A stretch of 64,000 nucleotides of DNA from Kribbella sp. VKM Ac-2569 (GCF_004216905.1 NZ_SGXJ01000003.1:1-64000), one strand, 5' to 3'. Shown: positions 48,921 through 54,150, counted from the first letter of the stretch. Numbers and translations are program-made. Notes: a model not told the origin generated them from the sequence alone.

Positions 48921-49040
48921 AAACTTTCCGGACAACCGGGTGTATCAACCCGCACCGAGGGTGACTCCGCAGAAGTGGGGGGAAGCCTTCGGGCCGCTGC
49001 AGGGGGGAGGGCGGCACGGGGGCACGCAAGAGGGGGAGCT

Positions 49041-49089
49041 GACGCGGTGCGAGCGTCCGGGCGGTCAGGCCGGAAAACCGCACCGCGTC
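49041..49089. terminator. Bidirectional terminator between convergent genes
   Basis: GACGCGGTGCG (49041-49051) and CGCACCGCGTC (49079-49089) form a perfect 11-pair stem. A smaller TCCGG/CCGGA stem can form in the loop. It sits between the lipoprotein and the convergent subtilase gene. Confidence 0.6.
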
Positions 49090-49105
49090 GGCGCGTTGTT
49101 CAGTT

Positions 49106-50374
49106 CTAGCCGAGTGATGCCAGTGCGTCGCCGGCCCGCAGGACCGGCCCGGTGCCCGGCTCGGGCTGCGTGAGCGCGAACGCCAGCAGCGCGTCCGCCG
49201 CCTGCTTGGCGCTCTCACCGGTGACTGACATCCGGCCGGCGATCAGACCGGCCACGAGCGGCGTCGCGAACGACGTACCGCTCCACCGGGCCATGCCCGC
49301 GAACGAGCGCACTTGGCCGGTGTTCGGCGGTTCGGTGCACTCGTAGTCGCCGGTCAGGAACGCGTTCACCAGGTGCTCGCCCGGTGCGTAGACGTCGACC
49401 CAGCCACCGAAGTTGCTGAACGACGCCCGGTCCCGCCCGTTGTCCGCCAGCGCACCGACGCCGACGGCCTCGGGGAACGCGGCCGGCCAGAAGTAGTCCC
49501 TGGACGACTCGTTGCCCGCCGCGGCGACCAGCGTGAGCCCGTTGACGCGGTTCAGCCGGGTCTGTACGAAGACGTCCAGAGCGAGCGGCGCCAGGTCGAA
49601 CCGGGTCCGGGTCCCCGCCGAGAGGCTGATGATGTCGGGCGCCAGATCGAGGATCTCGTCCAGTGCCTGCGCGAGATCGAACTCCCACATCGCACCGGCC
49701 GCGGTGAAGTAGCTCTTCACCACGATCTCCACGTTGCGCGCGATCGCCCGCATCACGCCGGCGATGAAGGTCCCGTGTCCGGCGTACGGCTTGATGTGCC
49801 CGGCCGGGTCGAACGCGTTCTCCGGATCGCCGGTCACCCCGGTCAGCCAGTACGCCGCCGGTGCGTCGGACCAGCCCACATCGAGTACGACGACCTTCAC
49901 CCCGCGACCGTCCGCGGCGCCCGCGGACAGGAACGGTGTGGGCAGCACCGGGTCCGGCGGAGTACCGGGCGTTACCTCCTCGGGCTCGGTCGCCGGGCAC
50001 GGGCTGACGCTCGGCGTGACGTAGAACAGGTGCTCCGGTGTGACGACACCGCGTCCGAGCCGCAGGTCGGCGTACTTCAGGAATCGTTGGGTGAGTGAAC
50101 GATCTTCCGGGGCTTCGGGCGGCACGCGGTCCGGCAGCAGCAGCCGGGTGACGCCGCCGATCCCGCCGTCGTCAGGGCGCCCGCCCTGGAAGAGCTCGAT
50201 CACTCGCGGGACGTCCTTGTCGCGGACCAGGACCGCTCCGGTGCGGTACAGGTAGTCGGCCCCCTCCGACCGCTTCTCCCAGTCCTCCGGAAACACCGCG
50301 ACCTGACCCTCGAATGCTCTGAGAATCAGCTCGATCTGAGCAATGTACTTTCGCTCGGTCGTTTGATTTTCCAT
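49106..50374 (-). CDS. Subtilase (S8 family serine peptidase), cytoplasmic
   Basis: A 422-residue subtilisin-fold protease with a complete triad: Asp165 in VVVLDVGWSD, His200 in YAGHGTFIAGV, Ser368 in SGTSFATPLVAG, and the oxyanion Asn288 in AAAGNES. Residues 1-145 form an N-terminal region with no signal peptide or membrane helix, so it appears intracellular, unlike most subtilases. The N-terminal region may inhibit the enzyme or dock partners. It is divergent, with a 48-base gap, from a TPR-CHAT gene that is followed by a sigma factor. The arrangement suggests a regulated proteolytic switch. Start by ATG; the ribosome site is weak. Confidence 0.9.
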   Translation of the reverse strand: MENQTTERKYIAQIELILRAFEGQVAVFPEDWEKRSEGADYLYRTGAVLVRDKDVPRVIELFQGGRPDDGGIGGVTRLLLPDRVPPEAPEDRSLTQRFLKYADLRLGRGVVTPEHLFYVTPSVSPCPATEPEEVTPGTPPDPVLPTPFLSAGAADGRGVKVVVLDVGWSDAPAAYWLTGVTGDPENAFDPAGHIKPYAGHGTFIAGVMRAIARNVEIVVKSYFTAAGAMWEFDLAQALDEILDLAPDIISLSAGTRTRFDLAPLALDVFVQTRLNRVNGLTLVAAAGNESSRDYFWPAAFPEAVGVGALADNGRDRASFSNFGGWVDVYAPGEHLVNAFLTGDYECTEPPNTGQVRSFAGMARWSGTSFATPLVAGLIAGRMSVTGESAKQAADALLAFALTQPEPGTGPVLRAGDALASLG

Positions 50375-50410
50375 TTCCTTACATCCCCCCTGGACAGTCG
50401 AAATGCCCGA

Positions 50411-50416
50411 TACTAT
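50411..50416 (+). promoter_or_regulatory. -10 box for a leaderless CHAT transcript
   Basis: TACTAT lies six bases before the CHAT start codon, placing the transcript start at or next to the ATG. The 48-base divergent gap leaves little room for anything but overlapping promoters, so the CHAT and subtilase genes are likely co-regulated. Confidence 0.5.
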
Positions 50417-50422
50417 TCCAGA

Positions 50423-53017
50423 ATGCCGACGGCAGGGGGGAGTGCCGAGGCGGCAGAGAATCTGCTGCCTCTTGCGTTGTCACGCCCGCACGACGCGATC
50501 GCGTCGGCGCGGACGCTGCTGGCCGGTGCGCCGGCGGCGGTGGAGGCGTCGATCGCACACCAGGCCTGGGGCATCGGTCTGCGGCAGCTCGGCGACGTGA
50601 CCACGGCCGTCCGCGAGTTGCGCACCGCGCTGCGGCTGGCGGAGCGGTCCGGGCGGTCGGAGCGACAGGCGGATGTCCTTGCCACGTTGGGCGCAACGCT
50701 CGGCCGGGCGGGCCGGAGTCGGGAGGGTCTGGCGCGGCTCGATCGTGCGGTCGACCTCAGCCGCGGTGCGTTGACCGGGCGCGTGCTGTTGCGGCGTGCC
50801 GACGTACTGCTGGTGCTTGGGCGGCATCGCGAGGCGCTCGACGATCTGCGGTCCGCGATCACGCGGTTGCGACGTTCGGGCGATCAGGTCTGGGAGGCGC
50901 GGTCGCGCAACTATCGCGGATTCATCCAACTCGCTTTGGGCTCTACGTTGCGCGCGGACGCGGATTTCGCTGTTGCGGAGAAGTTGTACGCCGCGACGGG
51001 TCAGGAGTTCGAGTACGCCGAGGCCCGGCAGAATCGTGGATTGGTCGCGTTCTCGCGGGGCGATCTGCCGGCGGCGCTGCGATACCTGGACGAAGCCGGC
51101 CGCCGGTTCGCGGCAGTCGGTGTGGTCTGGCCGGACCTGGCGATCGACCGGTGCGGTGTATTGCTCGCGGCCGGTCTCAGTACGGAGGCGCTGGCCGAGA
51201 TGGATCAAGCCATCGCGGGCGAGGGCGGTACGGCGACCAAACGCGGGGAGCTGTTGTTCGCGGCCGCGACTGCTGCGTTGGCGGCGGGGGATCCGGCGGC
51301 GGCACGGGAGCATGCGGATCGGGCGCGGCGGTTGTTCTCGGCGCAGCGCCGGGAGTGGTGGTCGGTGCGCTCGTCGATGGTGCTGCTGGAGGCGCGCTAT
51401 CAGTCGGGAGAACGTGGAGAGCGGTTACTTCGGCGCGTGAGCGCGGTGGCTGGTCGGCTGGACGCGTTGGGTGCGTCTGAGGCGTCGGCTGCGCATTTGC
51501 TGGCGGGGCGGTTGGCGTTGGCCGAGGGGCGGGCACGGGCCGCGGATCGGCAACTGGAGTTGGCCGGACGGCACAGCAAGGACGCGCCGCCGATCGCCCG
51601 GAGCGCGGCGTGGTTGGGGAAGGCCTTGCGGGCCGAGGCGCGTAGTGACGTGCGGGGGATGTTGTCGGCATGCGCTCGCGGGCTGGATGCGTTGGACGAG
51701 CATCGGCTGGCGATGGGCGCGACCGAGCTGCGGGCGTTGTCGACGGGTCACGGTGCCGAGTTGGCGGGGCTGGCGCTGCGGGACGCGTTGCGGCGTGACG
51801 ATCCGCGGCGGTTGCTGAGTTGGGGTGAGCGGTGGCGGGCGACGGCGCTCGGGGTGCCACCGGTGCGTCCGCCGGACGACGAGCAACTCGTCGGAGAACT
51901 CGCGGCGCTGCGGGACGTCGTACGGCGGTTGGATGCGTCGCCCGATCTGTCGCTGGAGAAGGAACGCCGGCGTTTGGAGAAGGCGGTCCGAGACCGAGCA
52001 CTACGCGCCACCGGCGGGGCAAATCGGATCGCGCTTCGGTTCGACGTTGACGAGCTGGTGGGGGTGTTGGGCGAGACTGTGCTTGTCGAGCTGGTTGAGG
52101 TTGGGGGTGTGTTGCACGCGGTGGTGGTGCGGGACGGGCGGATCACGAAGCACGAGGTCGGTCCGTTGGCTGCGGCGGCGCTAGAGGTTGAGCGTTCGCG
52201 ATTCCGCCTGCGTCGTCTGGCTCACGGCCGACCACACGGTCGACCTCAGGGTGGACCGTCTCTCGAGGTGTTGGGGGCGCGGTTGGGGGACGCGATTCTC
52301 GGGTCTGCTCAGGAGCTGTTGGGGGATCGGCCTGTGGTGATGGTGCCGCCCGGCAGGTTGCACGCGTTGCCTTGGGGACTGGTGCCCGTGTTGGCTGATC
52401 GGGCCGTGAACGTGGTGCCGTCGGCGGCGACCTGGTTGCGCGCGCGGCAGGTGCGGCCGCCGTCGGATCATCGTGTCGTGCTGGTGCTCGGGCCGGGCTT
52501 GTCGGCGGGCCGCGCCGAGGTCATGCAGCTGGCGAAGCAGTACCCGGACGCCACAGTGCTGACGGACGGCGACGCGACCGCGGAGAAGGTACTGCGGGAA
52601 CTCGACGGTGCCTGGATCGCGCATATCGCGGCGCACGGCACGTTCCGCTCGGACAGTCCGTTGTTCTCGTCGTTGCGGCTCGACGACGGGCCGCTGACCG
52701 TGTACGACTTCGAGCGGTTGCATCGAGCGCCGTACCGGATGGTGTTGTCCAGTTGCGATTCCGGGCTGGCGAAGCCGGTCGGCGCGGACGAGCTGCTCGG
52801 GTTGAGCAGCAGCCTGATCCCGTTGGGTGCGGCGGGCATTCTGGCGAGCGTCGTACCGGTGAACGACCCGGCAACCGCTCCCTTGATGCTCGCGATGCAC
52901 GAGAACCTGCAGGCAGGTCAATCGTTGGCGGCCGCGTTCGCCGCGGCTCGTCTGGAGGCGCGGGGTGATCCGGTGGCCGATGCCGCTGGTTGTTCGTTCG
53001 TCGCACTCGGAGCTTGA
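50423..53017 (+). CDS. TPR-CHAT protein (caspase-like protease)
   Basis: An 864-residue protein. Residues 1-470 are a helical repeat array (TPR-like, for example LATLGATLGRAGRSREGLARLDRAV and NRGLVAFSRGDLPAALRYLDEAGRRFA). Residues about 535-864 are a CHAT domain, the caspase/separase-related cysteine protease fold. The catalytic pair is His738 in HIAAHGTF and Cys778 in VLSSCDSG, both intact. TPR-CHAT proteases act in programmed responses such as gasdermin cleavage and the type III-E CRISPR Craspase. Here the partners are a divergent subtilase and a downstream ECF sigma factor. ATG at 50423 follows a TACTAT -10 box; no signal or membrane segment. Confidence 0.9.
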   Translation: MPTAGGSAEAAENLLPLALSRPHDAIASARTLLAGAPAAVEASIAHQAWGIGLRQLGDVTTAVRELRTALRLAERSGRSERQADVLATLGATLGRAGRSREGLARLDRAVDLSRGALTGRVLLRRADVLLVLGRHREALDDLRSAITRLRRSGDQVWEARSRNYRGFIQLALGSTLRADADFAVAEKLYAATGQEFEYAEARQNRGLVAFSRGDLPAALRYLDEAGRRFAAVGVVWPDLAIDRCGVLLAAGLSTEALAEMDQAIAGEGGTATKRGELLFAAATAALAAGDPAAAREHADRARRLFSAQRREWWSVRSSMVLLEARYQSGERGERLLRRVSAVAGRLDALGASEASAAHLLAGRLALAEGRARAADRQLELAGRHSKDAPPIARSAAWLGKALRAEARSDVRGMLSACARGLDALDEHRLAMGATELRALSTGHGAELAGLALRDALRRDDPRRLLSWGERWRATALGVPPVRPPDDEQLVGELAALRDVVRRLDASPDLSLEKERRRLEKAVRDRALRATGGANRIALRFDVDELVGVLGETVLVELVEVGGVLHAVVVRDGRITKHEVGPLAAAALEVERSRFRLRRLAHGRPHGRPQGGPSLEVLGARLGDAILGSAQELLGDRPVVMVPPGRLHALPWGLVPVLADRAVNVVPSAATWLRARQVRPPSDHRVVLVLGPGLSAGRAEVMQLAKQYPDATVLTDGDATAEKVLRELDGAWIAHIAAHGTFRSDSPLFSSLRLDDGPLTVYDFERLHRAPYRMVLSSCDSGLAKPVGADELLGLSSSLIPLGAAGILASVVPVNDPATAPLMLAMHENLQAGQSLAAAFAAARLEARGDPVADAAGCSFVALGA

Positions 53018-53096
53018 TGTATCAGCAGTCGTCCGGATCGCTCTGTACCAGTAAGAGAGGTGTTGCTGAGCGGTCCGGTGAGGAAGGGGAGGCGGC

Positions 53097-53681
53097 GTGC
53101 GGGACGATTCGACAGTCGTCGACCTGGTCACCAGGGCCAGGGGCGGCGAGAAGAATGCGTGGGACGAACTGGTGGAGCGGTATGCGCCGCTCGTCTATTC
53201 GGTGTGCCGGCGATGCCGGCTGGCGCAGCCGGATATCGACGACGTCGGACAGAGCGTGTGGCTGCGGCTCGTCGAGCACCTGCCGGGTCTGCGCGAGCCG
53301 GCCGCGTTGCCGGGCTGGATCGCGACGACGACCCAGCGCGAGTGCTTTCGGCTGATCCGTGCGACCAGCCGGGTCGAACCGGTGGACTTCGTGCAGGCGC
53401 CCGACGTTCCTGAACAGGCGATCGCCGAGGAAGAAGTACTGCGGCACGAACGCAAGACGATCCTGCGCACCGCGTTCGCGGAACTCTCGCGGCGCTGCCA
53501 GGTTCTGCTCGGGCTGCTGATGCAGGACCCACCGGCGCCGTACGACGAGATCAGCCGGCGGCTCCAGGTGCCGATCGGCAGCATCGGCCCGAACCGGGCC
53601 CGCTGCCTGACCCGGCTACGACAGACTCCCGCGCTGGCACGGCTGGCGGCGGATGGACCCGATGACAGGACGAGGGGGTGA
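53097..53681 (+). CDS. ECF-type RNA polymerase sigma factor
   Basis: A 194-residue sigma-70-family factor of the ECF group. Region 2 is in WDELVERYAPLVYSVCRRCRLAQPDIDDVGQSVWLRLVEHL (about 22-62). Region 4 is in ILRTAFAELSRRCQVLLGLLMQDPPAPYDEISRRLQVPIGSIGPNRARCLTRL (about 122-174). GGGGAGG precedes the GTG start. It follows the TPR-CHAT gene by 79 bases and precedes a small unknown gene by ten. No typical membrane anti-sigma gene is nearby, so control may be through the module's own proteins, for example proteolysis. That is inference. Confidence 0.9.
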   Translation: MRDDSTVVDLVTRARGGEKNAWDELVERYAPLVYSVCRRCRLAQPDIDDVGQSVWLRLVEHLPGLREPAALPGWIATTTQRECFRLIRATSRVEPVDFVQAPDVPEQAIAEEEVLRHERKTILRTAFAELSRRCQVLLGLLMQDPPAPYDEISRRLQVPIGSIGPNRARCLTRLRQTPALARLAADGPDDRTRG

Positions 53682-53691
53682 GAGAACCGTG

Positions 53692-54150
53692 ATGGATCCG
53701 GACTGGCACGACGACGAGAAGCTGATCGAAGCCCTACGCGACGCGCTGGCGTCCGCGGACGAAGTTCCGTCCGCCTTCGTCGAAGCCGGCAAGGCGGCGT
53801 TCGCATGGCGGACCATCGACGCCGAACTGGCGGCGCTCACCTACGACTCCGCACAGGATCCGCTGGACGCGCTGGCGATCCGCTCGGAGAGCGCGATCTT
53901 GCGTTCTCTCACGTTCGCCTCGGACGGCTGGACGGTCGAGCTCGAGCTGACGCCGAACGCCGTCCTGGGCCAGCTCGACCCACCCGAGGTCGGCCTGGTC
54001 ACGGCCCGCGGCGACGGCGGCAAGCTGGCAGAAGCGGAGATCGACGAACTCGGCTTCTTCGTTCTCGGCCCGCCGCCGAACAATCCCTACCGCCTGGTCT
54101 GCACGACGCAGTCCGGTACGACGATCCTGACCGGCTGGATCACGCCCTAG
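53692..54150 (+). CDS. Small protein of the CHAT/sigma module, unknown
   Basis: A 152-residue soluble protein. The N-terminal 55 residues are a helical stretch with the motif FVEAGKAAFAWRTIDAELAALTYDSA. The remainder looks like a beta domain (WTVELELTPNAVLGQLDPPEVGLVT, FFVLGPPPNNPYRLVC). No membrane segment or zinc motif is seen. It lies ten bases after the sigma factor gene on the same strand and so is surely co-transcribed. A soluble regulator of the sigma factor or a substrate/activator of the proteases is possible. The start at 53692 follows GAGAGA. Confidence 0.78.
   Translation: MDPDWHDDEKLIEALRDALASADEVPSAFVEAGKAAFAWRTIDAELAALTYDSAQDPLDALAIRSESAILRSLTFASDGWTVELELTPNAVLGQLDPPEVGLVTARGDGGKLAEAEIDELGFFVLGPPPNNPYRLVCTTQSGTTILTGWITP

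Follow-up and report, generated by a model that had tools for sequence, protein, structure and literature searches.

A conserved four-gene module of actinobacteria with two proteases, an ECF sigma factor and a small protein: a candidate protease-triggered sigma switch

Introduction

Do two proteases of different class, an ECF sigma factor and a small soluble protein that lie side by side in an actinobacterial genome work together, and if so, which of them acts on which? The question is raised by a locus of Kribbella sp. VKM Ac-2569 (GCF_004216905.1, NZ_SGXJ01000003.1:1-64000). The whole stretch of 64,000 nucleotides that was analysed is called the window here, and the four genes occupy its positions 49,106 to 54,150. 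An initial annotation, made from the sequence, had taken them for one module and had proposed, as a reasonable model, a cascade in which one protease activates the other or releases sigma from its small partner. We have followed this up by a survey of related loci and by comparisons of sequence and predicted structure.

Results

Composition of the gene set

All four open reading frames were confirmed by their coordinates and by family matches. They are listed with two copies of a promoter-like motif and with a structured RNA at the left edge of the set, a neighbour that the first reading of the sequence had missed.

48941..48967, plus strand: the other copy of the promoter motif (TGTATCA-N17-CTC), preceding the small RNA
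48970..49095, plus strand: structured small RNA, convergent with the 3' end of the subtilase gene
49106..50374, minus strand: S8 subtilase, 422 aa; Pfam S8, E=2e-21; triad D165/H200/S368
50423..53017 (ATG at 50423), plus strand: TPR-CHAT cysteine protease, 864 aa; CHAT, E=3e-28, and TPR; dyad H738/C778
53018..53043, plus strand: promoter-like motif before the sigma operon, TGTATCA-N16-CTC; candidate for an autoregulated ECF promoter
53097..53681, plus strand: ECF sigma factor, 194 aa; sigma2 and sigma4 with a GSIGPxRxRCL motif
53692..54150 (alternative ATG at 53653), plus strand: small soluble partner protein, candidate anti-sigma factor

The two protease genes had been described as facing each other, but they are divergent and lie back to back, with 48 bp separating their start codons. 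Their catalytic residues are intact, as had been claimed, and are kept throughout the homologues compared, the S8 triad in 66/66 and the CHAT dyad in 65/65. The Pfam and NCBIfam scans of the two proteases found TPR, CHAT and S8 only, and neither SAVED nor Lon. Membrane spans and export signals were assessed by hydropathy and not by a dedicated signal-peptide predictor. No membrane span was seen in either the sigma factor or the small protein, in agreement with the proposed lack of a membrane anti-sigma factor. The claim that both proteases lack export signals held for the subtilase, where none was seen; the hydropathy of CHAT was borderline, but its AlphaFold model (pLDDT 92) is one continuous TPR-CHAT fold.

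The CHAT gene was also said to lead into the sigma gene. The two are indeed adjacent; since a motif of its own for the sigma operon follows directly after the CHAT stop, this order need not mean read-through. Just before the CHAT ATG (50405-50425), Kribbella has a −10 sequence resembling TATCAT/TACTAT, which suggests that the CHAT transcript is leaderless and starts from a housekeeping promoter.

The sigma factor matched TIGR02937 with 67.6 bits (cut-off 42.9) over residues 21-176 and also matched Sigma70_r2, while the Pfam sigma4 models stayed below significance on the protein of the window. The small protein matched no Pfam or NCBIfam family. Its start is more probably the ATG at 53692, 10 bp past the sigma stop, because conservation begins there.

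The four genes form a module

As the small protein belongs to no named family, it was chosen as the probe with which loci were searched. In GTDB genomes it led to 23 loci from Kribbella, Labedaea, Nonomuraea, Microbispora, Kutzneria, Virgisporangium and Streptosporangium, and in all of them (23/23) the four genes lay within a few kb. Another 20 Kribbella loci also had the complete quartet; one duplicates a locus of the first set, so that 19 were distinct and the total came to 42 distinct loci. These co-occurrence counts refer to loci found via the small protein, and the reverse check covered the genus and 14 additional genomes. Of 38 Kribbella genomes, 31 contain both the small protein and CHAT, and the other 7 contain neither. 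A phylum sample of 396 genomes gave a small-protein match in at least 33, an undercount since nine candidates were scored per genome, and the quartet was complete in 21 of the 35 loci fetched.

The gene order varied between loci. The subtilase can be divergent from CHAT-sigma-small, or CHAT can be divergent from subtilase-sigma-small, or sigma-small can converge on CHAT, past which the subtilase lies. In almost every locus the small protein is encoded immediately after sigma. The claim of a four-gene module is strongly supported by the 42 distinct loci, the co-loss within the genus and the sub-pairs that are kept when the set is split. Chance neighbourhood of genes without a common function has a negligible probability: homologues stand together far more often than chance would give, the co-loss and the co-evolution described below speak against it as well, and nothing was found that counts for it.

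Three loci deserve mention on their own. One of the 20 additional Kribbella loci is a second, diverged complete module in the genome of the window (L044, G000:C1 at about 1.881 Mb), whose gene order differs and which lacks the strict promoter motif. A sigma-CHAT-subtilase set that is more distant, and in which the small protein was not detectable, is present at L119 (G199:C3). Locus L064 (NZ_LT559118.1) lies on an 11.85 Mb Nonomuraea record that is titled 'plasmid I' in a plasmid collection but whose size suggests a chromosome.

The quartet consists of two co-evolving pairs

Where the quartet was split, in distant actinobacteria, it mostly fell into two pairs, sigma with the small protein and CHAT with the subtilase. 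In the genomes with a split set, CHAT and the subtilase mostly lay together at another place: a subtilase adjoined CHAT in 8 of the 12 loci fetched for CHAT matches, and some of the other loci were at contig ends. A sigma gene was not detected beside the small protein in four loci (L075, L077, L097 and L103). CHAT was not found in the genomes of two sigma-small pairs (G419 and G423, the latter a fragmented assembly), nor in the fragmented assembly G306, where the small protein alone was seen.

The same pairs emerged from pairwise distances, which correlated with r=0.95 for sigma and the small protein and with r=0.93 for CHAT and the subtilase; the four cross pairs gave 0.77-0.80. The trees were compared with groups picked after the distances had been seen, so the AU p values are somewhat optimistic: the sigma-small tree set the Kribbella main module apart from the second Kribbella type and rejected one clade of the two (p=1.6e-6), and the CHAT-subtilase tree grouped the main module with the second Kribbella type and rejected its clade with the other genera (p=4e-5). 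Because the distances match within the pairs and the trees conflict between them, we read the protease pair and the sigma pair as units that were probably swapped as wholes, each with tight internal contact. On this evidence, the small protein, which adjoins and co-evolves with sigma, is a candidate anti-sigma factor, and a cascade between the two co-evolving proteases is plausible.

A promoter motif accompanies the sigma gene

The motif [CT]GTATCA-N16/17-CTC stands ahead of the unit that contains sigma in 16 of the 17 main-type loci of Kribbella, which are related and hence not 17 independent cases. In the other genera, on which the weight of the finding rests, 20 of 45 loci have it. Shuffled upstream regions gave an expectation of 0.04 per set, and wrong spacings gave 0 and 4 matches. 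The second module type had the motif in 0/12. As it precedes sigma in Kribbella and the subtilase-sigma-small operon elsewhere, the motif tracks the sigma gene and no fixed neighbour; in Kribbella it does not stand directly before either protease gene. The copy at 53018-53043 looks like an autoregulated ECF promoter and is regarded as a candidate for one.

In one other genus of the class, a second motif site was seen before a gene read from its sequence as a LuxR-like ATPase regulator (L086, L087 and L091). The gene adjoins the module, is convergent with CHAT and may be one of the targets of sigma there.

A genome-wide regulon could not be derived from the motif alone, with 5 matches in the window's own genome against 5 for a reversed control pattern. 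Most of the other single sites examined lay inside genes. Most Kribbella genomes have a pair of sites about 8.7 kb apart, set before genes for a UDP-glucose dehydrogenase and a Wzz-like protein. An exopolysaccharide regulon of the module was considered and rejected: the site pair accompanies a third sigma paralogue, encoded next to the exopolysaccharide genes, and G003, G008 and G028, which have the quartet without the third sigma, had no site pair listed. Since the site pair tracks the third sigma, it is not claimed as a target of the module. In the window's own genome the exopolysaccharide cluster (L156/L157, G000:C1:657000-692000) has two motif sites, its own sigma paralogue and a short relative of the small protein in which the linker arginine is missing; these probably make up a sigma circuit of their own, free of CHAT. 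The predicted targets of the module that find support are the sigma operon and the small RNA only.

A structured small RNA at the module edge

The 126 bp after the motif copy at 48941-48967 contain no evident gene and are conserved in Kribbella 3' of the subtilase. The predicted RNA has a first stem-loop with GGGGGGAG in its loop, a G-rich linker and a long terminal hairpin, and RNAfold gave z=-3.7. In an alignment of 17 sequences, two long helices had 95% of their cells paired, and 9 of 28 pairs showed changes on both sides. None of 500 shuffles reached this level, and the slid-structure controls were all far lower. Of the 38 Kribbella genomes, 24 gave matches to a covariance model of the RNA, almost always a single one that lay at the edge of the module; the 7 genomes that lack the module gave none. 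Two weak extra matches lay elsewhere in G015. No Rfam family matched at its gathering score, and the weak matches below were meaningless. Related module types have shorter sequences with the same GGGGGGAG box and a hairpin.

The proteases and the linker of the small protein

The model of CHAT has no separate sigma-binding domain. Its top structural matches were Csx29 (Z 30-32), separase (Z 28) and DdvA (Z 24, 642 residues aligned), and of the matches listed by the sequence search DdvA was the sole protein with a CHAT domain and a known structure. Besides the catalytic dyad, D755 and D815 are conserved, the latter in 64/65. Separase cleaves after arginine, and by its position D815 may correspond to the aspartate that binds the P1 arginine in separase. 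The catalytic domain of the subtilase resembles ordinary subtilisins, intracellular ones included, and its N-terminal ~150 residues appear to be a prodomain-like region. A conserved arginine between this region and the catalytic domain, as a possible site for CHAT, was looked for and not found. The subtilases of L093 and L101 carry short peptide repeats (QGNPAY and YPGGTP) ahead of the catalytic domain.

The small protein was modelled with a pLDDT of 86 as two N-terminal helices and a strand, followed by a low-confidence linker and a C-terminal beta-sandwich. The structural matches were generic Ig/FN3-like folds only, came from the C-terminal half and had Z below 8. Profile and fold searches listed no match to Csx30, to CalpT or to known anti-sigma domains.

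The linker (residues 67-83) varies in length and sequence, and apart from one arginine no position in it is conserved above about 50%. This residue, Arg77 when counted from the ATG at 53653 and Arg64 from the ATG at 53692, was kept in 60/61 sequences of the alignment and in 79/80 of a larger set, mostly as [GAP][VTL]R[GAST], with the caveat that MAFFT may favour the alignment of an arginine within a gappy region. The one sequence without it, L105, belongs to a genome that gave no CHAT match. Among 16 CHAT-independent paralogues compared, which are encoded beside the exopolysaccharide cluster, the linker was shorter and the arginine was not conserved, though several had some arginine nearby. 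Taken together, the conserved linker arginine, its loss or lack of conservation without CHAT, and D815 of CHAT make Arg77 the best candidate for a CHAT cleavage site. This is a prediction from sequence comparison, and the arginine could instead be structural. This residue, its behaviour without CHAT and close precedents lend indirect support to the earlier proposal that a protease releases sigma from the small protein.

Discussion

A proposed protease-triggered sigma switch

Our preferred reading, to which we give a probability of about 0.55, is a cytoplasmic switch in which CHAT cuts the small anti-sigma protein and thereby frees the ECF sigma factor. At rest, the small protein would hold the co-transcribed sigma inactive. 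A cue would switch on the TPR-CHAT protease, which the subtilase would serve as a dedicated partner or activator; this is the least certain step. CHAT would then cut the small protein after Arg77, a site proposed from its conservation, so that the N-terminal helices are parted from the beta-sandwich. The free sigma may transcribe its own operon from the TGTATCA-N16/17-CTC motif and, in Kribbella, may drive the adjacent small RNA from the same motif. The full picture, an actinobacteria-wide and CRISPR-free switch with two proteases, a CHAT cut at arginine, exchangeable pairs and a sigma-driven Kribbella RNA, is tentative and falls somewhat short of even odds.

In place of this switch, the TPR-CHAT protein itself might bind sigma as anti-sigma factor and sensor, in the manner of DdvA and DdvS, with the small protein as an accessory or co-activator and the subtilase inactivating the complex. 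The structural relation to DdvA (8rot/8rw5, Z 24, 642 aligned), which, of the solved structures listed, also gave the best sequence match to the CHAT domain, speaks for such an arrangement. We consider it unlikely, however, as sigma co-evolves far more with the small protein (0.95) than with CHAT (0.77), occurs together with the small protein without CHAT in several loci, and stands beside a CHAT that has kept its full catalytic dyad. About equally improbable is a two-step cascade in which CHAT merely activates the subtilase and the subtilase cuts the small protein. It would fit the tight pairing of CHAT and S8 and the long prodomain-like N-terminus of the latter, and some type III CRISPR systems have a proteolytic cascade that runs below SAVED-CHAT (PMC11229360). 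Against it, no conserved Arg that might serve CHAT as a site was found between the prodomain-like region and the catalytic domain of S8. A P1 arginine is also better suited to a CHAT/separase-type protease than to most subtilases.

The locus had further been read as a possible immunity or cell-fate switch, and these parts of the proposal found no support. An abortive or cell-death defence, in which one protease or both would be the effectors and sigma would do no more than raise their expression, seems less probable still than the two preceding alternatives. CHAT and subtilase proteases are known in defence and death systems, and in several genera the subtilase lies inside the operon with the sigma motif; in Kribbella, however, the motif is not directly before the protease genes. 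The module is present in 31/38 species of the genus, its flanks are ordinary metabolic genes, and there was no close PADLOC match. No Cas family, Cas7-11/gRAMP included, was found among the neighbours scanned in the window, and a CRISPR or defence-island context was likewise rejected for them. Immunity is not favoured over stress or development by these findings.

Comparison with known systems

The exact quartet has no named counterpart in the literature searched, as the initial annotation had supposed, but its logic is known from CRISPR-associated modules. In the type III-E Craspase, Csx29 cuts Csx30 and relieves CASP-sigma (PMC10028731). Craspase and the present module share the TPR-CHAT fold with its His/Cys dyad and the ECF sigma factor, and the soluble protein that restrains sigma until it is cleaved has a candidate equivalent here in the small protein. 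The latter has 152-165 residues and no detectable relation to Csx30, and the subtilase as usual CHAT partner and the module's own small RNA are features of the present system. The N-terminal part of Csx30 alone did not inhibit CASP-sigma (PMC10028731), so the position that a releasing cut requires is uncertain.

The CalpL/CalpT/CalpS system follows the same logic of protease, soluble anti-sigma and ECF sigma factor; there CalpL, a SAVED-Lon protease activated by cA4, cuts CalpT (PMC11417357), whereas the module has CHAT and a subtilase and neither SAVED nor Lon. In Myxococcus, where DdvS controls a CBASS-CRISPR island (PMC12288465), a TPR-CHAT fold is tied to an ECF sigma factor as it is here (8rot, 8rw5). 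DdvA, however, is a transmembrane anti-sigma factor, whereas the CHAT protein of the module is modelled as soluble and a separate small protein stands beside sigma. A CHAT protease is also part of the SAVED-CHAT that heads a proteolytic cascade in type III CRISPR (PMC11229360), while the module lacks SAVED and has a subtilase as its second protease. Separase likewise combines a helical array with a CHAT-type catalytic domain that follows it (Z 28), but it is eukaryotic, acts on cohesin and works without a sigma factor.

The release of sigma from a soluble inhibitor by a cytoplasmic protease is known mainly as an output of type III CRISPR. If our reading is correct, the same logic would exist as a free-standing, widely inherited regulatory module of actinobacteria, and a new structured RNA would be added to those known. 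For CHAT proteases outside CRISPR it would predict both a concrete substrate and the site of the cut, and it would hint at the source from which the CRISPR versions were recruited.
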